NCBI GenBank assembly: GCA_029240395.1 | Contig: JAREAJ010000019.1 | Location: 1-12,844, forward strand | DNA: 12,844 bases | From: Nitrososphaeraceae archaeon | GTDB taxonomy: Archaea > Thermoproteota > Nitrososphaeria > Nitrososphaerales > Nitrososphaeraceae | Direction of reading: 5' to 3' | Shown here: positions 866 to 12,386 of the stretch, in pieces | Layout: each line of letters begins with the position of its first letter | Numbering within the stretch: the first letter of the stretch is position 1 | The notes under the pieces: generated by a model | Database searches by the model: none | What the model saw: the letters and a program-made list of their open reading frames with translations, nothing else | What the model was told of the DNA's origin: nothing | Position numbers and translations under genes: made by a program

Positions 866-2932
866 TTGGCTCAGATAGATAATACAGAACATAAACACAA
901 AAAGTTACCCCGTGAAAGCTCTAGGAGACTATCTGACCGTGAAAGTCTAGCTGCGAAGAATATCTTGGAAGCGCTCCCCTCTGAATCACAAATATCGATA
1001 GCGAAGTTTGAAGGCCCTAATATTGCCCTTTACACGAAGAATCCGAAATTTTCCCTAACTGAACTAACTTATCATCTATCGTCACTTTCAAGGACTATCA
1101 AAAAAAGGTTTGTTGTCCGAACGGATCCCTCAATCCGATTGCCCGAGGATGAGACAAGGGAAACAATCTCTAAGTTGCTCCCTAAGGGGGTTATAGTCTC
1201 AGCTGTCTTTTGCGATGAAGCGACAGGTGAGGTAATTCTAGAAGTAAACAAACCTGAAGTTGTAAATGCAGAGATGGTAATAGAAATAGCTCAATCGACA
1301 GGATGGATATCACATACTCGGCTCTCACCTCATATTCCATCGACTAGCATAAACACCATCCATTCAACACTCAAGGCTTCTGCAAAGGAGAGGAGCAATT
1401 TTCTCCAAGAACTTGGAAAGAAAATATTCCGACCCCCACTTCTTACTCGTCATAAGAACACAGAAAGTGATTACTCTGGTGTCAGGAATCCTGAGTATAA
1501 ACAAAAATTTACAAATAAATATGATGGTGGCACAGAACAACACAGACTTCTCAACAAGGAGGAAGTTATGCTATTCTGTTTAGGTGGTGTCAAGCAGGTG
1601 GGCAGATCTTGCTTTATTGTCATGACTCAGGAGAGTAAGGTTATGTTAGATTGTGGGATCAATCCGGCTGAGCCTGAACCATTAAATGCGTTCCCGCGTT
1701 TGGATTGGTTTAACTTTAATCTTGACGAACTGGATGCTGTGATCATCAGTCACGCTCATATTGATCATCAAGGATTTCTCCCGACATTATTTAAGTTCGG
1801 CTATAACGGTCCGATTTACTGCACAGAACCCACCTTACCCTTAATGACGTTGCTTCAGACTGACTCCGTCAAAATTGCAAAGAGCAATGGCGCATATATA
1901 CCATATGAAATTCGTGATATAAGTGAGGTTATCAAGCATTGCATTACCATTCCTTATGGCAAGCCCACTGATATTTCTCCTGATATCACCATTACGTTAA
2001 ACAACGCCGGACATATAATGGGAAGCGCAACCGTTCATCTGAACATTTCTGGGGCACATAATATTCTTTACTCTGGAGACTACAAGTATTCTAAAACACA
2101 GCTGTTAGACAGCGCCTTATCTATATATCCTAGGGTCGAGACATTGATAACAGAAAGCACATATGGAAACAGCACAGACATTATGCCGGAACAATCCATA
2201 GTGTATCAGACGTTTACAAGCAATATCAACAGGACGTTAACAGGGGGAGGAAAAGTCCTAATCCCAGTCCCGGCGGTAGGTAGGGCACAGGAGATTATGC
2301 TGGTGTTAGACAAGGAAATGCGTGAAGGAAGATTAATGGAGTCTCCTATTTATATCGAAGGAATGATTTCGGAGGCGAGTGCAGTCCATATGTCATACGC
2401 ACATTACCTCGGTTACGACGTAAGAAAGTCTGTATCTCAGGGAATTAATCCATTTAAGTCAGAATACTTTACTGTAGTTAGCGGTCCAGGAAACCGGGCG
2501 GACATTCTAAACGACGAGGCTCCGTCAATAATAATGGCAACTTCGGGGATGTTAGAAGGCGGTCCGTCGGTAGAGTATTTTAAAGAGATAGCCCCCCAGA
2601 AAGGAAATAGGATTATGTTCGTCTCATACCAAATTAATGGAACCCTAGGCCGACGGGTCCTCGATGGAGCAATGAACGAAGTCAGCATGCTAGACAAGAA
2701 TGGAAAACTCAAAGTTGTTCCTGTCAAGTGCGAAACTAACCGCATTGACGGCTTTAGCGGACATAGCGATTTCAACCAAATAATGAGCTTCGTATCACGT
2801 GTAAAGCCCAAGCGAGTTTTGGTTAATCACGGAGAGAAATCCAAATCAGAGTCTGTAGCTAGCGCTGTCCACTATCGATACAAATTGAGGTCAAGCGTTC
2901 CTGACAATAGAGAAATAATAAGATTGCGATAA
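866..2932 (+). CDS. fttA: Archaeal transcription termination factor FttA / aCPSF1 (KH, metallo-beta-lactamase and beta-CASP ribonuclease)
   Basis: A 688-aa homologue of eukaryotic CPSF73. In archaea this family cuts nascent RNA at U-rich sites, ends transcription and can trim RNA 5' to 3'. The N-terminal 30-40 residues are a charged tail, followed by paired KH-type RNA-binding modules (about 40-185; FEGPNIALYTKNP and RTDPSIRLP are family hallmarks). The metallo-beta-lactamase core begins near CLGGVKQVGRS (238). Zinc ligands are visible: H296-A-H298-I-D300-H301, H383 in HIMGSA, D405 in YSGDY, and H655 in VNHGE. The beta-CASP part contains TESTYG, ATSGMLEGGP and GFSGHSD (H633). The C-terminus ends NREIIRLR, as in the family. 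Homologues I recall are about 630-650 aa; the extra length is the tail plus a polar linker around 193-235. The TTG start is needed because the first internal Met lies beyond residue 130. Confidence 0.95.
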   Translation: MAQIDNTEHKHKKLPRESSRRLSDRESLAAKNILEALPSESQISIAKFEGPNIALYTKNPKFSLTELTYHLSSLSRTIKKRFVVRTDPSIRLPEDETRETISKLLPKGVIVSAVFCDEATGEVILEVNKPEVVNAEMVIEIAQSTGWISHTRLSPHIPSTSINTIHSTLKASAKERSNFLQELGKKIFRPPLLTRHKNTESDYSGVRNPEYKQKFTNKYDGGTEQHRLLNKEEVMLFCLGGVKQVGRSCFIVMTQESKVMLDCGINPAEPEPLNAFPRLDWFNFNLDELDAVIISHAHIDHQGFLPTLFKFGYNGPIYCTEPTLPLMTLLQTDSVKIAKSNGAYIPYEIRDISEVIKHCITIPYGKPTDISPDITITLNNAGHIMGSATVHLNISGAHNILYSGDYKYSKTQLLDSALSIYPRVETLITESTYGNSTDIMPEQSIVYQTFTSNINRTLTGGGKVLIPVPAVGRAQEIMLVLDKEMREGRLMESPIYIEGMISEASAVHMSYAHYLGYDVRKSVSQGINPFKSEYFTVVSGPGNRADILNDEAPSIIMATSGMLEGGPSVEYFKEIAPQKGNRIMFVSYQINGTLGRRVLDGAMNEVSMLDKNGKLKVVPVKCETNRIDGFSGHSDFNQIMSFVSRVKPKRVLVNHGEKSKSESVASAVHYRYKLRSSVPDNREIIRLR

Positions 2933-3561: not shown

Positions 3562-4335
3562 CTATAACGCATCCTCAGCGACTTGGAAAATTAACCCGCA
3601 AGATACGAGCAGGAGATAGATGGAAAGAAAAATCTGTAACAGTCGTTCCCTTAGGCGGCCCGAAAGCTCAGCTCCGATTAGCCCTCCTGCGAACGCTCCA
3701 GCTCCCAGCGAGAGAGCATGTAAATAAGCGGGATGTCCCAGCATGACATGAGTCGCTAGCCCGATCAATGCGCTTATCATAATGACAAACTGGGATGTGG
3801 GTGCCGCTTCATACATTCTCATACCCAGCATTATTAACAGTAAGGGAACAAAGATTATTCCACCGCCTACTCCAAAAAGACTAGATACCACGCCCGCAGC
3901 AAAGGCACAAAAATATGCTACCGGTTGATGATACTGGCTCTCTCCTTTTTCAACTTTCCTTTCCTTAAAATGACTGTTGAATAACATGTATATCACGGCT
4001 GATATCAAGATAACGGAAAAGATTAGCTTGAATAGTTCGGTTGAAATTACAGCAGAAAGGTAGGCGCCTAGTACTGCGCCCGGCGCCGATAGGATAGCCA
4101 GCTTGGAAGCAGTATCATACTTTATTCTTCTTAGCCGCGCGTAGGAGACCGTGGATGAAATACTAGTAAACGCAACAGCAATGAGACTGGTGCTTGAAAC
4201 TGATGTCGGCTGAAATCCGAGCAGGGCCAGCGTTGGAGTAAAGATTATTCCACCTCCCACACCCAGGATCGAGCCAACCGTTCCTCCTGCTATCCCTACT
4301 GCTACCAAAATAATGGTAAAAATGATATCGAACAT
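3562..4335 (-). CDS. TauE/SafE family membrane permease (putative sulfite/organosulfonate exporter)
   Basis: A 257-aa very hydrophobic protein with about eight membrane segments. It shows the internal duplication of the TauE/SafE family: the loop motif GVGGGIIFTP (about 25-34) recurs as GVGGGIIFVP (about 155-164), each opening one half. A charged cytoplasmic linker (HFKERKVEKGESQYH, about 122-136) separates the halves. The family exports sulfite, sulfoacetate or related anions, but most members have no proven substrate. The frame runs 23 codons further upstream to a TTG. I prefer ATG 4335 because it begins directly with the first membrane helix (MFDIIFTIILVAVGI) and a TATA-like TTTTAATATG (4376-4367) sits 30-40 bases ahead. 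It is divergent from Amt. Confidence 0.88.
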   Translation of the reverse strand: MFDIIFTIILVAVGIAGGTVGSILGVGGGIIFTPTLALLGFQPTSVSSTSLIAVAFTSISSTVSYARLRRIKYDTASKLAILSAPGAVLGAYLSAVISTELFKLIFSVILISAVIYMLFNSHFKERKVEKGESQYHQPVAYFCAFAAGVVSSLFGVGGGIIFVPLLLIMLGMRMYEAAPTSQFVIMISALIGLATHVMLGHPAYLHALSLGAGAFAGGLIGAELSGRLRERLLQIFLSIYLLLVSCGLIFQVAEDAL

Positions 4336-4366
4336 AGACTTCCAGTATAGTAAGGGAGGGAGATAG

Positions 4367-4475
4367 CATATTAAAAGTGCGATGTTTCGACTTCTATTTA
4401 TCAATGGATAGAATTCAAAATAGATTCCACATTTGAAACTCGTGGTGGAGGGGGTCGCTGCTGGTTTTATATATT
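4367..4475. promoter_or_regulatory. Divergent promoter region of TauE and Amt, with a 7-bp inverted repeat
   Basis: On the minus strand TTTTAATATG (4376-4367) suits the TauE start at 4335. On the plus strand TTTATATATT (4466-4475) suits the Amt start at 4506. Between them TCTATTT (4393-4399) and AAATAGA (4418-4424) form a perfect inverted repeat with an 18-bp spacer, roughly two helical turns centre to centre. A shared regulator of both genes is conceivable. Confidence 0.5.
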
Positions 4476-4505: not shown

Positions 4506-5732
4506 TTGGCCATTGATACTGGTGACACCACTTGGATGCTCATTTCAACAGGCCTGGTAATGTTAATGACGCCAGCTTTGGGATTCTTTGAAGCTGGTCT
4601 CATTCGAAGTAAGAATTCGCTGTCCGTCCTAGTTCAAACATTCTCTGGTCTTGCAATCTTGTCGGCTTTATGGTTCATTCTCGGTTTTACACTAGTCTTC
4701 TCCCCCTCACAGTCGGGGATAATTGGCGGGTTTGATTGGCTTTTCTTCAGAGATGTTCCAGTGAATGATTCATTGGATTATGCACCAACTATTCCAGGTA
4801 TAACTTTCGCATCCTTTCAGATGATGTTTGCAGTGATTACACCGCTTCTCATTACGGGAGCATTTGCTGAAAGGTTGAAGTGGTCTTCCTTTTTTGTATT
4901 CATAATAGCGTGGAGCATTCTCGTATATTATCCTCTGGCGCACTGGGTATGGGGTCGGGGATGGCTAGCGGATCTAGGTGTCTTTGATTTTGCAGGGGGT
5001 ATCGTTATTCATACAAGTGCAGGGCTCGCGTCCGTGGCTGCTGCTCTGGTTTTGGGTCGCAGAAGGAATTTCGGTCCGGACATCATGGTTCCCCACAACA
5101 TACCGCTGGCAGTCTTGGGAGCAAGCTTGCTATGGATAGGGTGGTTCGGATTTAATGCCGGTAGTGCATTGGCATCAGGAGGCTTAGCCGCTAACACCTT
5201 ACTCGTAACCCACATTGGTTCGGCAACGTCTGCAATAGTATGGTTGTTTCTTTCGTGGAAAAGAGCAGGGAAACCCTCCACTACCGCGGTCATTAATGGT
5301 GCCATCTCTGGTCTGGCCGGGGTGACCCCGGCTGCGGGCTTTATTACTGCTCAAACCTCATTTTTACTAGGCATTGTACTCGGCTTTGCATCATACTACG
5401 GGATTTTGCTTATCAAAGAACGTCTTAAGATAGACGACGCCTTGGATGTAAGCTCTGTTCATGGCATTACAGGAATAGTGGGTTCGATCGCAATAGGATT
5501 GGTTGCTACAACAATCATTAATCCTGCTGGTCCAAATGGTTTGCTATATGGCAATTCTAATCAGTTGGCAGTCCAGGCTTTAGGGGTGGCCATAGCTGCT
5601 GTATTGGCTTTTGTTGGGACTATATTGATAATGAGAGTAATTGACATTACAATAGGTCTAAAGGTTAAAAGTGAAGAAGAGGAGATTGGTCTAGACATAA
5701 CACAACATGCAGAGAGAGCGTACGTTGACTAG
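4506..5732 (+). CDS. amt: Ammonium transporter Amt
   Basis: A 408-aa Amt/Rh-family channel-like transporter with about 11 membrane helices, importing ammonium across the cytoplasmic membrane. The start AIDTGDTTWMLISTGLVMLM is the usual N-terminus of periplasm-facing Amt proteins lacking a signal peptide. The conserved pore elements are present: D161 in DFAGG, twin histidines H169 (VIHTSAG) and H319 (VHGITG), and the signatures GFFEAGLIRSKN and WFGFNAGSA. These match E. coli AmtB D160/H168/H318 by position. The TTG start at 4506 is required, since the next ATG (Met11) would cut into helix 1. TATATATT at 4466-4475 gives a leader of about 10 nt. No PII (GlnK) gene lies next to it, unlike many bacterial amt loci. 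The C-terminal tail is short and acidic (KSEEEEIGLD). Confidence 0.96.
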   Translation: MAIDTGDTTWMLISTGLVMLMTPALGFFEAGLIRSKNSLSVLVQTFSGLAILSALWFILGFTLVFSPSQSGIIGGFDWLFFRDVPVNDSLDYAPTIPGITFASFQMMFAVITPLLITGAFAERLKWSSFFVFIIAWSILVYYPLAHWVWGRGWLADLGVFDFAGGIVIHTSAGLASVAAALVLGRRRNFGPDIMVPHNIPLAVLGASLLWIGWFGFNAGSALASGGLAANTLLVTHIGSATSAIVWLFLSWKRAGKPSTTAVINGAISGLAGVTPAAGFITAQTSFLLGIVLGFASYYGILLIKERLKIDDALDVSSVHGITGIVGSIAIGLVATTIINPAGPNGLLYGNSNQLAVQALGVAIAAVLAFVGTILIMRVIDITIGLKVKSEEEEIGLDITQHAERAYVD

Positions 5733-7535: not shown

Positions 7536-8135
7536 GTGTCGAGACGTTTAAGGTCCAATGACAACATTTCCCCTGAAAATGTAGCACAATCAATCGACGG
7601 CGTTTTAGTTGGGAATAGAATAGTAGTGTGGGATATAGAAAGCTCTCGCCTATTGTTTGGGAATGGCTATTTTGGGAAACCGATGGGTATAGCAAAACCC
7701 AAAGGAACTCAGTTTAGCCATCCGCTCATCCTAGATCTCATGGAGGGATATTATCTCTCCTTGAAATTAAAACTCATATTACATACAAATGACGGCAAGC
7801 CATTGTCCGTGTTAGATATTAAATCAATCTGTAGAAAACAATACGAAGGATTTGATACAAAATATTTAGTTTTCCATGACTTAAGAGATAGAGGCTACGT
7901 AGTCTCTCCTGGTATTAAGTTTGGTTGCGATTTTGCTGTTTATGAACATGGCCCCGGAATTGATCACGCTCCTTACTTGGTTCAAGTCTGCAAACCGCAC
8001 TTTGATCTAACAGCGACATCAATAGTACTCGCTGGCAGGCTTGCAACAACAGTAAAGAAGCAGTTTATAATAGCAATTCCTAAGCCAATCGAGAAAAAGG
8101 TTGAGTTCATTGGATTCGATTGGTGGCGTGCATGA
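7536..8135 (+). CDS. endA: tRNA-splicing endonuclease
   Basis: A 199-aa homologue of archaeal EndA, which cuts bulge-helix-bulge motifs to release tRNA (and rRNA) introns, leaving 2',3'-cyclic phosphate ends for RtcB. An N-terminal alpha/beta domain (about 20-90) precedes the catalytic domain (about 95-199). The catalytic block reads KFGCDFAVYEHGPGIDHAPY, placing the catalytic Tyr at Y136 and His at H144; the Lys is K174 or K175 in TVKKQF. The length suits a single-unit subunit (alpha type) rather than the fused euryarchaeal form. The loop YFGKPMGIAKPKG (45-57) is Lys-rich; crenarchaeal subunits carry a Lys-containing loop in this general region tied to broad substrate range, but I could not align it. 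GTG start fits the leaderless promoter. The doubly interrupted tRNA-Trp in this window is an obvious substrate. Confidence 0.93.
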   Translation: MSRRLRSNDNISPENVAQSIDGVLVGNRIVVWDIESSRLLFGNGYFGKPMGIAKPKGTQFSHPLILDLMEGYYLSLKLKLILHTNDGKPLSVLDIKSICRKQYEGFDTKYLVFHDLRDRGYVVSPGIKFGCDFAVYEHGPGIDHAPYLVQVCKPHFDLTATSIVLAGRLATTVKKQFIIAIPKPIEKKVEFIGFDWWRA

Positions 8136-8171: not shown

Positions 8172-8807
8172 TCAATCAAGCGACTGCATTACGGTTTGCA
8201 CTTTTTCCTTATTTTGCGGTAGATCGAATCCAACAAAGTTTTCTCCTGAAATAGTCAACACCGTGGACAACTTGTCCGAACCGTGAGTAAGCCATCCTTT
8301 ATACCTTATGGAGTTTTTCACTATGTCGATAATGCTAGGTTTTTTTTCATCTACTTCGTCATAGCAAGAAAGTATTTCGCCAAACTTCACTTCTGACTGT
8401 TTATTGAATTTAGTTAGATAGTAGACGAAGACTGCAGTTTTTTCGTAGTGGTTAGCAGGTCTCTTTTTATTATAAAATTCCCTTAAACCAACCTTATCAC
8501 TTCCTGCTTTCAAATCCACTGGTATAGGAGGCAGAACCATGTGCTGTCTGGTTAGATGTTTGTTGTTGGTTTTTACGGCATGCAAGCCGACCGTCGTCCT
8601 AGATTCATCTCGTTCAAGCATCCTGTCAGTATTTCTTCCATCTTCATTTCTCATCCTGCCGATTCTCTTCACCATAGCTTCCTGTATTGCTGATTTGCAT
8701 ATTTCCTCAAATTTTTCTAGATGTCTTTCAACAAACGTACTGCTTCCTTCTATCTCTACTATGCCTTCTCTAACATTTATCTTGAATTTGGCTTCAGAAG
8801 GGGTCAT
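8172..8807 (-). CDS. Conserved-looking archaeal protein of unknown function
   Basis: A 211-aa soluble protein that I do not assign to a named family. Residues about 3-40 (KFKINVREGIVEIEGSSTFV) look like a small beta-hairpin module followed by a helix, a pattern I associate with uncharacterised archaeal proteins. A charged, probably disordered linker (about 50-95) leads to a C-terminal domain (about 105-211) with LREFYNKKRPANHYEKTAV, IDIVKNSIRYKGWLTH and LTISGENFVGFDLP. This resembles a winged-helix-like module with a terminal 'LT..Ge..V...LP' wing. ATG 8807 is chosen over GTG 8819 because TTAATTAG (8838-8831) lies about 27 bases upstream, as in leaderless genes here. It is convergent with endA, 36 bp apart. 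DNA or protein binding is a guess. Confidence 0.72.
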   Translation of the reverse strand: MTPSEAKFKINVREGIVEIEGSSTFVERHLEKFEEICKSAIQEAMVKRIGRMRNEDGRNTDRMLERDESRTTVGLHAVKTNNKHLTRQHMVLPPIPVDLKAGSDKVGLREFYNKKRPANHYEKTAVFVYYLTKFNKQSEVKFGEILSCYDEVDEKKPSIIDIVKNSIRYKGWLTHGSDKLSTVLTISGENFVGFDLPQNKEKVQTVMQSLD

Positions 8808-9148
8808 TAGACTAACCACTCTTCAGACTCTAATTAACCTGTCGGTACAATACGGTAGTGCTGCTTCTCTAAATTGTATTGATAGCAAATATTTGATTGG
8901 TGCTACTCAGATAGCAAGCAGCCTGGATAAACCAAATAGATCCTCCTCTTAAACCTTATGGTGAGTAGGAGAAGTTTGTACAAAAATTATCTACGAGATG
9001 TAAGCTAGCGAACGAAAAAAGAATCAGCGTTCAGATTAAAGAATGAAATTGAATAACATGACTATACTTCTATAGAATAAAATAATGCATGAGTATTTTG
9101 GACTTAGTCGAAAGTTAACTTTAATAATATACAAAATGCTCATATGCC
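8808..9148. other. Divergent intergenic region
   Basis: The 340 bp separate the start of the unknown protein (minus) from the tandem SDR gene (plus). TATA candidates are TTAATTAG (8838-8831, minus) and TTTAATAATATAC (9120-9131, plus). An AGGAGG-like run on the minus strand near 8940-8946 precedes only an 11-codon frame. The longer plus-strand open frame through 8539-8952 is the complement of the minus-strand gene. No RNA gene was recognised. Confidence 0.4.
9120..9131 (+). promoter_or_regulatory. TATA box of the tandem SDR gene
   Basis: TTTAATAATATAC is centred about 24 bases before ATG 9149, so the mRNA is probably leaderless or nearly so. Confidence 0.55.
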
Positions 9149-10954
9149 ATGGAAAAGCAGGCTCTTCGGTCATACTCTAGTCTCAGTAACAAGGTCGTTT
9201 TAATTACTGGCAGTGGCACAGGAATTGGCCAGTCAATTGCTAAGAAATTCGCAGAAAATGGCGCAAGCATCATCATTATGGGCAGAAGGAAGGAGCCACT
9301 TGAGCAAACAACAACAATATTAAACGGAATTATTGCAGACAATGGCTTGTCTGCTCGAGTAAAATCTTTTTCCGGAATTGATGTTGCAGACGAGACAGGA
9401 ATCAACAATATGTTGAAACAGATAGCAGAAGAATTCGGTCGTATTGATATTGTGGTTAATAACGCAGGCGTGTCGGGACCAGTGAAAGCATTTACTAATG
9501 CCAATTTCACTGAGTTTAAAGATTGTGTTGCTATTCACCTTACAGGCACCTTTTGGACTTCTCGACAGTGTATACCTTTGATGGGCCAAAATGCCAAGAT
9601 AATTACGATATCCACATTTTTTAGCGAAGAAAATCGGTACGAGCAGAGACCATATAGATTTAGAACGCCTTACACAGCTGCTCAGGGGGCTAAAAATAGG
9701 CTCGCTGAGGCCTTAGCTTGGGAACTGACGGACAAGGGTATCAAGTCTATTGCAACCAACCCGGGACCAGTTCACTCTGACAGAATATACAAAACTGTCT
9801 ATCCGAAGGCTGCAGCCGAATTCTTGAGGATCAGCGGGTATTCGGGGCTTTCACCTTCACAAACAGAATATGCCTGTACCAAATTACTGCCATTACTTGG
9901 AGAAGATAATGCTGTAGTTTTATCTGCAATAAATGAAACCGCTCAGCAACTAAGCTCAGGTCGGGACAGCTCACTGGATCCCGCGTACCTTGTTCAAGTG
10001 TTGTCCGGACTATTAAGTAAAATACAGGAAATAGCAGAAAAGATACAAGCTAATACCAAGAACATGATTGTGGACAGCGAATTCCTTACACAGGAAGACG
10101 TCGCTGACATTGTGTTGAACCTGTGTGATGAAAAGATATCTGCACTAATAAATGGAAGAATTGTTCCCAGCGATCGGGTTTTCTATCCAGTCCGACCATT
10201 AGTAAGAACTTCCCTCGATGACAACTCTTCGTCTTTACGTATTGAGGAAAAAGTTGTTATTCTTTTGGGAAATCCCTCAAATGCTAAGGATTTGGATCGT
10301 CTAAAAAACTTAGCAAATGCTTTAAGGGTTGAAGGAGTAAGGAATTTGACGATTTTCCTGCATAGTTGTAACTTGCCATTCAAATTTGAGAGCTTTTCTT
10401 ATGAAATGTTTAACCTGAATGATGAGGAACAAATTGGATATAAATTCCAGCAGGTGGCCAAGAAATACGGATCCATTGACTCTGTAGTCTATATGACTGG
10501 TAATTACGACTATGAACGGTCACTCTTGTCCCTCAGCAGAAAAGAATGGGATTCCCTCGTTGAACAGTTTATTAATATCCCAGCGTTGGTGACCAAGGAA
10601 TCGGTAAATGCTATGTGTCCAGGCGCAGTACTAGACCCTCCACGATATAAGAATTCTAACGGAAGGGTTATCATAGTAGGTCCTGAGAGTCCCGCGGGGG
10701 CGAAAATCTCTGGTCTTGTCAGAGCGAGGTCAGAAGTTTTTCGGGGTGCCTTAAGACCGTTTGCGGCAACAGTCAACCAAGAGCTCTTCGAGGTATTAGG
10801 TTCGAATATCAGGCTATTTCTTATACTTCCGGGGACAATAGCGGGATCCGGGTCAGACGCACAAAGGCTCCATCGTTCTGCGGCACAGATAATTTCTGGC
10901 CATGTAGGAAACAATGGTGATGCAATATTTTATATAGACGAAGTAAAAAAATGA
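9149..10954 (+). CDS. Tandem SDR protein, homologue of the reductase half of malonyl-CoA reductase (candidate malonic semialdehyde reductase)
   Basis: A 601-aa protein with two short-chain dehydrogenase/reductase domains. Domain 1 (about 14-345) has TGSGTGIG (20-27), GRRK after strand 2 (45-48, suggesting NADPH), NNAG (104-107) and ISTFFSEENRY (S155). It also has NPGPVHSDRIYKTVYP and QEDVADIVLNLC. Domain 2 (about 355-600) lacks the glycine motif and YxxxK and is probably structural. From memory, the N-terminal half of Chloroflexus Mcr has the same order of motifs (STIFS, PGPIESDRI, GDVADAAVFLA, then a degenerate second SDR); that half reduces malonic semialdehyde to 3-hydroxypropionate. A helical insert (about 235-310) is extra here. 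Y175-T-A-A-Q179 has Gln where the catalytic Lys is expected. The aldehyde-forming half of Mcr is absent. A role in the 3-hydroxypropionate/4-hydroxybutyrate cycle is inference. Confidence 0.8.
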   Translation: MEKQALRSYSSLSNKVVLITGSGTGIGQSIAKKFAENGASIIIMGRRKEPLEQTTTILNGIIADNGLSARVKSFSGIDVADETGINNMLKQIAEEFGRIDIVVNNAGVSGPVKAFTNANFTEFKDCVAIHLTGTFWTSRQCIPLMGQNAKIITISTFFSEENRYEQRPYRFRTPYTAAQGAKNRLAEALAWELTDKGIKSIATNPGPVHSDRIYKTVYPKAAAEFLRISGYSGLSPSQTEYACTKLLPLLGEDNAVVLSAINETAQQLSSGRDSSLDPAYLVQVLSGLLSKIQEIAEKIQANTKNMIVDSEFLTQEDVADIVLNLCDEKISALINGRIVPSDRVFYPVRPLVRTSLDDNSSSLRIEEKVVILLGNPSNAKDLDRLKNLANALRVEGVRNLTIFLHSCNLPFKFESFSYEMFNLNDEEQIGYKFQQVAKKYGSIDSVVYMTGNYDYERSLLSLSRKEWDSLVEQFINIPALVTKESVNAMCPGAVLDPPRYKNSNGRVIIVGPESPAGAKISGLVRARSEVFRGALRPFAATVNQELFEVLGSNIRLFLILPGTIAGSGSDAQRLHRSAAQIISGHVGNNGDAIFYIDEVKK

Positions 10955-11188: not shown

Positions 11189-11461
11189 TTACGAAGACTG
11201 ATCAGATGCTTCGCCCGTAATACTTTCCTTCGGTTGACCGTCGATAATTTCGGCAGTGGCGAATCTGTTGCCTACCTGGGTTATTCTGATTTTTGCATTC
11301 TGGCCAACCTTTCCGTCCTTGACAAAAATAACAAAGCCTTGAATTCTTGCTATACCTTCGCCCTTCCTGCTTATTTCAGTTATTTGTACGTCATATTCTT
11401 TTCCTGTCTCTACAGGTTTTGGACCGAAGCTATCGTTCCTTCTGAATCCTCCATCACTCAT
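11189..11461 (-). CDS. Stand-alone TRAM-domain RNA-binding protein
   Basis: A 90-aa protein with a single TRAM domain (about 18-75). It opens with PVETGKEYDVQITEISRKGE and continues GIARIQGFVIFVKDG and VGQNAKIRITQVGNRFA, the five-stranded OB-like barrel seen in TrmA/MiaB-type enzymes. The N-terminal tail is Gly/Arg-containing (SDGGFRRND) and the C-terminal tail is polar. Free-standing TRAM proteins are abundant in archaea; some act as RNA chaperones, comparable to bacterial cold-shock proteins. The ATG start is supported by TATATAAA upstream. The gene stands alone, with its own probable terminator. Confidence 0.92.
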   Translation of the reverse strand: MSDGGFRRNDSFGPKPVETGKEYDVQITEISRKGEGIARIQGFVIFVKDGKVGQNAKIRITQVGNRFATAEIIDGQPKESITGEASDQSS

Positions 11462-11546: not shown

Positions 11547-12386
11547 TCAGGTTCCTATTCTAATCTTGTTACCACACATTCTTCTGAGACATTCAATTGC
11601 TGACAATGAAGCGAGAAAGCTTGTCCGGGGGTTGGAGGGACTCGGAACATTCCGAACCATTATCGAGATTTCTCCAAACTTACCTATCGCGGTAATTTTA
11701 TGTTCGTTCCGTGTTGCACGAGGATCTGCAATTACTCTTACCCTAGTATTCCTAGCCCCTCGCCCTGCCAAGCTAAGTACCATAGCAACATTGATGTTCG
11801 AAGGAAACATCGTGGCTGCATCTATTGCGTTTCCATCGTATAGTAACGTTTTCTTCTTAATACTTTCCGGTTTTGTCTTTCTTAGATTAAAATATGGGGC
11901 CCCTGCAAGAGACTTTGGGTTTTTTGTGGTAGTGAGCATCACGAAATCAAGGAGATGTCTTACACTGCATATAGCATCGATACCTGCAATGGCACCCGTT
12001 GGCACATAGATATGACCATCATGCTTTGTTGCTGCGTTGTATAGCGCATGAACCAAGTGAGAATCAGATAACGCGCCTGTGCTCATGATCATAAGGCTTT
12101 TGTCCGACAAAACAATTTTCTTTGCATAGGCCCGAACTGCTTCCTGTGAGGCTGCTTCAACCACGATATCTGCCATTCTAAACTGCTTAGAGGAAATCAG
12201 ATCCGAAAAATTCGAAAAAGTGGCAGGATTATTGTTTATAAGGCTATCTTTCAGACTTAACGAAGCAGTAGTTATTGTATCAAATAAAAAAACTAGAGCA
12301 GCGTTCTCGACGCTTGAATTATCAATAGCAAAGGATAACTCATGACCTATCGTTCCACAACCTATTATTCCTATTTTTTTCTGCAT
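11547..12386 (-). CDS. nadX: L-aspartate dehydrogenase (NAD biosynthesis)
   Basis: A 279-aa enzyme oxidising L-aspartate to iminoaspartate, which quinolinate synthase NadA condenses with dihydroxyacetone phosphate for NAD synthesis. It replaces L-aspartate oxidase NadB without using oxygen. The Rossmann motif is GIIGCGTIG (6-14). Family blocks follow: VVEAASQEAV (75-84), STGAL (102-106), YVPTGAIAGIDAI (127-139), MFPSNINVAMVLSLAGRG (193-210), H229 near HKITAIGKFGE, and PSPSNPRTSFLASLSAI (248-264). The length is normal. The ATG directly follows a TAA (TAAATG). S30e lies 118 bp upstream on the same strand, so co-transcription is possible, though TATATCTCTTAAAA near 12440-12454 could be a separate promoter. 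NadA and NadC are not in the window. Confidence 0.93.
   Translation of the reverse strand: MQKKIGIIGCGTIGHELSFAIDNSSVENAALVFLFDTITTASLSLKDSLINNNPATFSNFSDLISSKQFRMADIVVEAASQEAVRAYAKKIVLSDKSLMIMSTGALSDSHLVHALYNAATKHDGHIYVPTGAIAGIDAICSVRHLLDFVMLTTTKNPKSLAGAPYFNLRKTKPESIKKKTLLYDGNAIDAATMFPSNINVAMVLSLAGRGARNTRVRVIADPRATRNEHKITAIGKFGEISIMVRNVPSPSNPRTSFLASLSAIECLRRMCGNKIRIGT

Follow-up and report, generated by a model that had tools for sequence, protein, structure and literature searches.

The gene and its surroundings

The window analysed here is the first 12,844 nucleotides of a contig of a Nitrososphaeraceae archaeon (JAREAJ010000019.1, assembly GCA_029240395.1). One of its genes encodes a protein of 601 amino acids (Table 1). 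The reading frame is intact and starts with ATG. Its homologs in ammonia-oxidizing archaea (AOA) are 45-61% identical to it and nearly all full length, and therefore we regard it as a real gene and not a chance open reading frame. Its neighbours encode the tRNA-intron endonuclease EndA (7536-8135), a TRAM protein (11189-11461, minus strand) and the aspartate dehydrogenase NadX (11547-12386, minus strand). A nearby ORF of 215 aa (8172-8819, minus strand) matched no Pfam or NCBIfam family. The window also carries a beta-CASP ribonuclease gene of the aCPSF1/FttA type (866-2932, plus strand; above the NCBIfam cut-off) and a TauE/SafE-type permease gene (3562-4404, minus strand), which adjoins and is divergent from an Amt ammonium transporter gene (4506-5732, plus strand).

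A sequence-only reading of this DNA had proposed two short-chain dehydrogenase/reductase (SDR) domains in tandem, and this was borne out. Pfam placed adh_short on the first domain (E = 8.6e-42, residues 15-211). The second domain received no match in the Pfam scan of the protein, and its strands and helices were clear in the AlphaFold model (residues 369-594). It has no SDR catalytic motifs; the active-site residues are confined to the first domain. The GRR sequence after strand 2 presumably reflects a preference for NADP(H). In the model, helices at residues 211-305 and 315-334 form an insertion, at a place comparable to the extra domain in the C-terminal half of bifunctional malonyl-CoA reductase (Mcr; halves Mcr-N and Mcr-C). 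Conservation was counted in 58 homologs, leaving out the protein's own copy and single SDRs (L001-L003, L061-L063). Alignment A1 holds 38 of the 58, and the trees take 12 of those 38. The three arginines of a basic segment in the second domain are kept in 57 homologs, the remaining one being an unread X, and this segment is a possible CoA contact.

Table 1. Features of the tandem-SDR gene, with positions in the window
Feature	Residues	Positions	Strand	Basis
Whole gene, Mcr-like tandem-SDR protein	601 aa	9149..10954	+	ORF, homologs, AlphaFold model, Foldseek
First SDR domain	11-211	9179..9781	+	Pfam; model strands and helices 16-204
Nucleotide-binding motif TGSGTGIG	20-27	9206..9229	+	No variation in A1 (38 rows)
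GRR after strand 2	45-47	9281..9289	+	Invariant, 58/58
NNAG motif	104-107	9458..9469	+	Invariant, 38/38
Catalytic Ser/Thr position	Thr156	9614..9616	+	58/58 homologs
Mcr-type substrate signature with Gln at the catalytic Lys position, Y169-x2-R172-x2-Y175-x3-Q179-x2-K182	169-182	9653..9694	+	58/58
NPGPVHSDRIY, including S210 and R212	204-214	9758..9790	+	Invariant in A1
Helical insertion ahead of the first domain's last strand	211-334	9779..10150	+	Model, spacing
Second, degenerate SDR domain	366-596	10244..10936	+	Model, hhalign
Conserved basic stretch in the second domain, R525..R532-GAL-R536-P	525-536	10721..10759	+	Three Arg, 57/58

Distribution of the gene

A search with the single protein over 398 genomes sampled from the phylum gave matches at 1e-40 in 73 of them, one in each; all 73 belong to the order of the window, and none of the remaining 325 passed this threshold. 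A profile built from 38 homologs matched 145 of the 200 class genomes searched, at a threshold of 1e-25. All of these belong to four AOA families, namely Nitrososphaeraceae (f1), Nitrosopumilaceae (f2), the Nitrosocaldus-like family f3 and f67, in which only G469, G473 and G510 of 148 genomes did not match. At the same threshold, the gene was found in 0 of 52 genomes from the other families of the class. Further profile matches, among the matches listed, were gene fragments or single SDRs. A pattern scan from one protein over 84,980 species genomes, which detects close relatives only, gave 31 loci. Nearly the whole protein was matched at 28 of them, all in AOA or Thaumarchaeota, with genera including Nitrososphaera, Nitrosocosmicus, Nitrosocaldus and Nitrosotenuis; the other three were bacterial single SDRs of 22-26% identity. 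The tandem-SDR gene is a single-copy signature of AOA and is absent from all other archaea examined. This agrees with the earlier description of a free-standing archaeal gene in a lineage that uses the 3-hydroxypropionate/4-hydroxybutyrate (HP/HB) cycle.

In the 200 genomes of the class, a search for archaeal AmoA was positive in 139. Both genes were present in 138 genomes and neither in 54; seven had only the SDR gene, and one (G510, 89% complete) had only AmoA. The seven are all from f1 or f2 and include the source genome of the window (G000), where AmoA was not found. Since that genome is only 59.66% complete, tests within it are weak.

Predicted fold

The AlphaFold model, built on the AOA alignment, had a pLDDT of 84.9 and a pTM of 0.87. 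Low-confidence spots were residues 1-9, the active-site loop 159-169 (pLDDT < 50) and residues 344-346. When the model was compared with the PDB by Foldseek, ranks 1-25 were all Mcr chains (E = 1.2e-24 to 1.8e-16), aligned over 628-694 columns, gaps included. The first other match, at rank 26, was a single-domain alcohol dehydrogenase that covered one domain (E = 3.2e-14). The Mcr-like fold suggested from the motifs is thus also the best match of the model, ahead of any other tandem-SDR family.

Ranks 1-16 were Mcr-C or full-length chains. A full-length chain stood first, and Mcr-C (8j2e, 8aet, 8hi5, 6k8s) was matched over the full-length fold at ranks 2-16. Mcr-N (6k8v, 8hi6, 8aew) was also matched over the full-length fold, with E values of 8.7e-23 to 1.4e-20, its first chain standing at rank 17 and three Mcr-C chains below it. 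Normalized by query length, TM scores reached only 0.66-0.71 (C chains) and 0.65-0.68 (N chains); by target length they were 0.62-0.66 and 0.71-0.75, respectively. The rmsd was 8.3-9.4 Å for C chains and 6.1-9.2 Å for N chains, and was lower for N in three of four cases. With values of 6.1-9.4 Å, the orientation of the domains must differ from that in both Mcr halves. The fold ranking leans to Mcr-C, by a small margin. As in a two-SDR unit of Mcr, a predicted active first domain and an inactive second domain go with a full-length fold match. The layout of the Chloroflexus-type bifunctional Mcr, with four SDR domains in about 1,220 aa, is not found in this protein of 601 aa and two SDR domains.

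Active-site residues and motif spacing

Both sites of Roseiflexus Mcr are described in PMC10470521. The N half has T165-Y178-K182 with Y172/R175, and its Lys is assigned a proton-relay role in alcohol formation. The C half has S731-Y749-K753 with Y743-R746, R785, R799 and R1164; malonyl-CoA is bound by Arg799 of the extra domain and Arg1164 of SDR4, and alanine at S731, Y749, K753 or R799 abolished activity.

The Y-x2-R-x2-Y motif together with an Arg after PGP was present in 12 of 12 AOA sequences and 7 of 7 Mcr sequences. It was complete in 0 of 15 ordinary SDRs, two of which do not reach the Arg212 column; partial forms occurred in L081 (both Arg) and L087 (one Tyr). L081 is a single-domain haloarchaeal SDR on a Natrinema plasmid, with Arg at the places of R172 and R212, as in Mcr. 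The invariant Y169, R172 and R212 correspond to the Tyr743-Arg746 pair and Arg785 of Mcr-C; in the numbering of PMC10470521, R212 aligns with two Mcr arginines, R785 in the C half (Roseiflexus) and R215 in the N half. For R799 and R1164, an alignment by eye gave no clear counterpart. The counterpart of Thr156 was Thr in all four Mcr-N sequences and Ser in all three Mcr-C sequences, and both T156 and S210 match Mcr-N in the alignment.

The main departure is at the catalytic Lys, a feature absent from the earlier reading. All 58 AOA homologs have YxxxQ instead of the classical YxxxK, and all 22 non-AOA sequences in the alignment have Lys at this position. The Ser-Tyr-Lys triad of Mcr-C is thus replaced by T156, Y175 and Q179, and of the Thr-Tyr-Lys triad of Mcr-N, Thr and Tyr are kept and Lys has become Gln. 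A Y-x6-K motif, as in Y175 and K182, is typical of enoyl-ACP reductases. This reading was rejected: the distance from Tyr to PGP is 30 (29-32 in Mcr), and therefore Q179, not K182, stands at the place of the Lys.

Nothing argues more strongly against ordinary catalysis than the lost catalytic Lys. Together with the second domain's lack of SDR catalytic motifs, it would fit a pseudo-enzyme that kept the fold, lost catalysis and now acts as a regulator binding NADPH or a CoA ester. We consider this improbable, because none of the other active-site residues examined varies among the 58 homologs, at overall identities of 48-61% to the 601-aa protein. Should the protein prove inactive, a conserved pseudo-enzyme of this kind would be no less odd.

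Motif spacing was measured on six AOA sequences (the Ser/Thr columns of L004 and the last-strand column of L044 were left out). From NNAG to Ser/Thr, the distance was 52 in AOA, 62-68 in Mcr-N and 54 in Mcr-C; from Ser/Thr to Tyr, it was 19, 13 and 18. Between PGP and the final strand of the first domain, it was 128-140 in AOA (130 in the 601-aa protein), 70 in Mcr-N and 176-178 in Mcr-C. The GxGIG-to-NNAG column was unused for the AOA sequences and the gammaproteobacterial C half, where the pattern failed. Two of these distances fit Mcr-C, and the insertion length falls between the two halves. Compared with Mcr-C, the loop before Tyr is of about equal length and the helical insertion sits in the same place, but the insertion is about 36-50 residues shorter. 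Compared with Mcr-N, in which SDR1 and SDR2 are joined without the extra domain, the catalytic loop is six residues longer and an insertion of about 60 residues is added. The sequence-only reading had claimed the motif spacing of the reductase half, Mcr-N, and this did not hold.

Profile comparison and descent

With three sequences on each side, hhalign scored the whole protein almost equally against Mcr-N (207.1) and Mcr-C (207.5). The first domain alone scored 186.5 against Mcr-N and 180.4 against Mcr-C, and the second domain scored 41.3 against SDR2 of Mcr-N and 27.4 against SDR4 of Mcr-C. An initial lean to Mcr-N (183.5 vs 158.6) was discounted, as it compared three sequences against one. 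Profile matches of the insertion to the Mcr-C extra domain were weak, and not significant when the insertion was compared alone. In a profile search of the PDB, the scores were about 72 bits for the first domain of Mcr-N, 84-86 for Mcr-C and 87 for a glucose dehydrogenase. Two ordinary SDRs (167 and 165) outscored Mcr (158-136) in first-domain profiles, and therefore no kinship to Mcr is claimed from the first domain alone. The sequence alone does not settle which Mcr half is nearer.

The first-domain tree contained 12 AOA, 4 Mcr-N, 3 Mcr-C and 15 ordinary SDR sequences. AOA and Mcr grouped together with a support of 93/83, just below the starred level, and of 96/94 in a smaller tree; Mcr-N grouped with Mcr-C at 86/36, and at 87/79 in the smaller tree. 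The smaller tree had nine ordinary SDRs, as the motif search recovered no frame for L002, L073, L074 and L078. For the larger one, the long-branch L076, L079 and L080 were dropped and nine were added. AU tests rejected neither AOA with Mcr-N nor AOA with Mcr-C (p-AU 0.318 and 0.366). The AOA first domain is possibly sister to both Mcr halves. A transfer between Chloroflexi-like and thaumarchaeal lineages, raised earlier, finds little in this result: the tree sets the first domain beside both halves, and the AU tests place it with neither.

The protein is a mosaic that reproduces neither half as such. It shares with Mcr-N the Thr, the S-x-R after PGP, the Y-x2-R-x2-Y motif and an SDR2-like second domain, which also sets it apart from Mcr-C, as do Thr in place of Ser and its free-standing form. 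Its YxxxQ differs from the YxxxK of both halves. Because the triads and the four-domain layout are absent, we do not class the protein as a member of Mcr. The earlier assignment to the semialdehyde-reducing half is not supported: the 16 best fold matches are Mcr-C or full-length chains and two indels fit Mcr-C, but two residues, the second-domain profile and, slightly, the first-domain profile fit Mcr-N better. In a more specific scenario, which we hold as doubtful but worth weighing, AOA would have a malonyl-CoA reductase that lacks the SDR Lys and descends from an unduplicated two-SDR unit sister to both Mcr halves; the four-domain Mcr would therefore have arisen by doubling.

Among the comparison sequences, L067:312-3941 encodes a full-length Mcr of 1,209 aa. 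Of 274 genomes taken from the class to which the L061 gammaproteobacterium belongs, one carried it, and the three other genomes of its family gave no match.

The MaoC-like neighbour

The gene order around the SDR gene varies between AOA clades (29 loci). In Nitrosopumilaceae, a gene for a protein of 148 aa lies directly downstream, and at 9 of 9 loci its start either overlaps the stop codon of the SDR gene or lies right against it (L046-L052, L055 and L056; e.g. L048:7788-8231). A profile of this protein matched 106 of 200 genomes: 95 of 115 in f2, 11 of 26 in f1, 0 of 6 in f3 and 0 of 1 in f67. All 95 matches in f2 lie downstream of the SDR gene on the same strand; the gap from the last matched SDR codon was -7 to +12 bases in 90 of them and 31-202 bases in five. 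In Nitrososphaeraceae, the gene is unlinked, adjoining the SDR gene in none of the 11 genomes that carry it; one copy (G507) is full of stops.

The 148-aa protein resembles the MaoC-like 1q6w in a single weak profile match (E = 6.5e-4). Pfam gave nothing above the cut-off for it, and its model was poor (pLDDT 38). The catalytic Asp and His of the MaoC hydratase motif were checked in 10 aligned sequences: the Asp was absent, and the His was kept only in the four from f1. Its position directly downstream of the SDR gene hints at thioester chemistry.

This tight gene pair in Nitrosopumilaceae could mean that the SDR protein is the reductase of another AOA-specific thioester pathway (envelope, lipid or storage) that works with the MaoC-like protein outside the HP/HB cycle. 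AOA have several lineage-specific traits in common, so finding the gene together with AmoA does not point to carbon fixation in particular. However, the Mcr signature and the full-length Mcr fold point to a short, carboxylate-bearing substrate. Because no more than 106 of 200 genomes, none of them in f3, gave a match to the neighbour, the MaoC-like protein is not essential to the function. On balance, we find this other pathway unlikely, with a probability that is still appreciable.

A proposed role in carbon fixation

AOA rank with the most abundant of all chemolithoautotrophs, and for some steps of the cycle by which they fix carbon no gene has been proven. The sequence-only reading had put the gap at malonic semialdehyde reduction. 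Nmar_1110 of Nitrosopumilus maritimus is a characterized malonic semialdehyde reductase according to PMC5797428. The gap lies instead at malonyl-CoA reductase. In PMC6038301 (2018), this enzyme and those of three further N. maritimus cycle reactions are listed as unidentified, although the reactions were measured in extracts; succinyl-CoA reductase is likewise listed for AOA. Malonyl-CoA reductase went undetected in three Amazon AOA genomes (PMC6964070).

One variant of the cycle in a 2026 marker list is, on our own reading, that of the AOA. For this variant, the list has no malonyl-CoA reductase marker (PMC12894919). Our search of open-access papers found no proposal of a tandem SDR as the malonyl-CoA reductase of AOA.

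Fold, signature residues, distribution and this pathway gap converge, and for these reasons we read the protein as an Mcr-like reductase of AOA carbon fixation. We tentatively put forward that it is an NADPH-dependent enzyme, most likely the missing malonyl-CoA reductase; it is a candidate that we hold with somewhat less than even confidence. The analysis shows the reading frame, its conservation, the predicted fold with its match, the distribution and the residues; cofactor, substrate, reaction and the roles of residues, including Q179, are what we infer. In the proposed mechanism, the first SDR domain would bind NADPH and substrate with the helical insertion beside the site, and the second domain would have lost its own site. 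Malonyl-CoA would be reduced to malonic semialdehyde in the HP/HB cycle: Y169, R172, Y175 and R212 would bind the free carboxylate and place the thioester, with NADPH giving the hydride and CoA departing. Q179 would replace the usual Lys in hydrogen bonding to the nicotinamide ribose. Release of CoA would need less proton donation than formation of an alcohol, which is partly why we prefer a CoA-reducing role to a semialdehyde-reducing one. A single-copy, lineage-tracking gene with the fold of a bacterial enzyme and an unusual active site makes this pathway question testable with one purified protein. The Sulfolobales malonyl-CoA/succinyl-CoA reductase of the Msed_0709 type catalyses the reaction proposed here; it resembles aspartate-semialdehyde dehydrogenases and is not known to have an SDR fold.

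Several points weigh against malonyl-CoA reductase. The chief one is the lost Lys, since K753A abolished the activity of Roseiflexus Mcr (PMC10470521). The second domain, T156, S210 and, slightly, the first domain are nearer to Mcr-N, and the MaoC-like gene is unlinked in Nitrososphaeraceae. GabD and Asd are among the proposed, unproven cycle candidates that respond to carbon limitation in a 2025 proteome study (PMC12542715). A succinyl-CoA reductase, or a dual malonyl-/succinyl-CoA reductase, would use the same chemistry on a carboxylate-bearing thioester and would fill a step likewise listed as lacking its enzyme. We give this only a small probability, since the relatives compared act on a shorter C3 substrate and GabD is proposed in the same study (PMC12542715), its assignment to this step being our own reading.

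The Mcr-N-like features named above would suit a malonic semialdehyde reductase making 3-hydroxypropionate. PMC5797428 reports that Nitrosocaldus cavascurensis has no Nmar_1110-type homolog and suggests SDRs about 30% identical to Caur_2614 as candidates for Nitrosocaldus. Against such a role, the Lys described as a proton relay for alcohol formation (PMC10470521) is gone and the spacing is not that of Mcr-N, and we think this reading improbable as well. Nmar_1110 shares the proposed pathway with our protein but belongs to an unrelated family, the iron-type alcohol dehydrogenases (Fe-ADH). Most f1 and f2 genomes have both the SDR gene and a strong Fe-ADH match, so the SDR protein is not simply a replacement; exceptions with a weak or no Fe-ADH match were G000, G474, G479, G509, G510 and G519. 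Strong Fe-ADH matches are taken here to be of the Nmar_1110-like kind, with orthology assumed. Six f3 genomes (G197, G257, G273, G350, G461 and G488) and one f67 genome (G436) all carry the SDR gene (7/7), with a strong Fe-ADH match in none (0/7), a point in favour of a semialdehyde-reducing role; the lack of the Nmar_1110 type may thus extend from one Nitrosocaldus to all sampled f3 genomes and to a further family.
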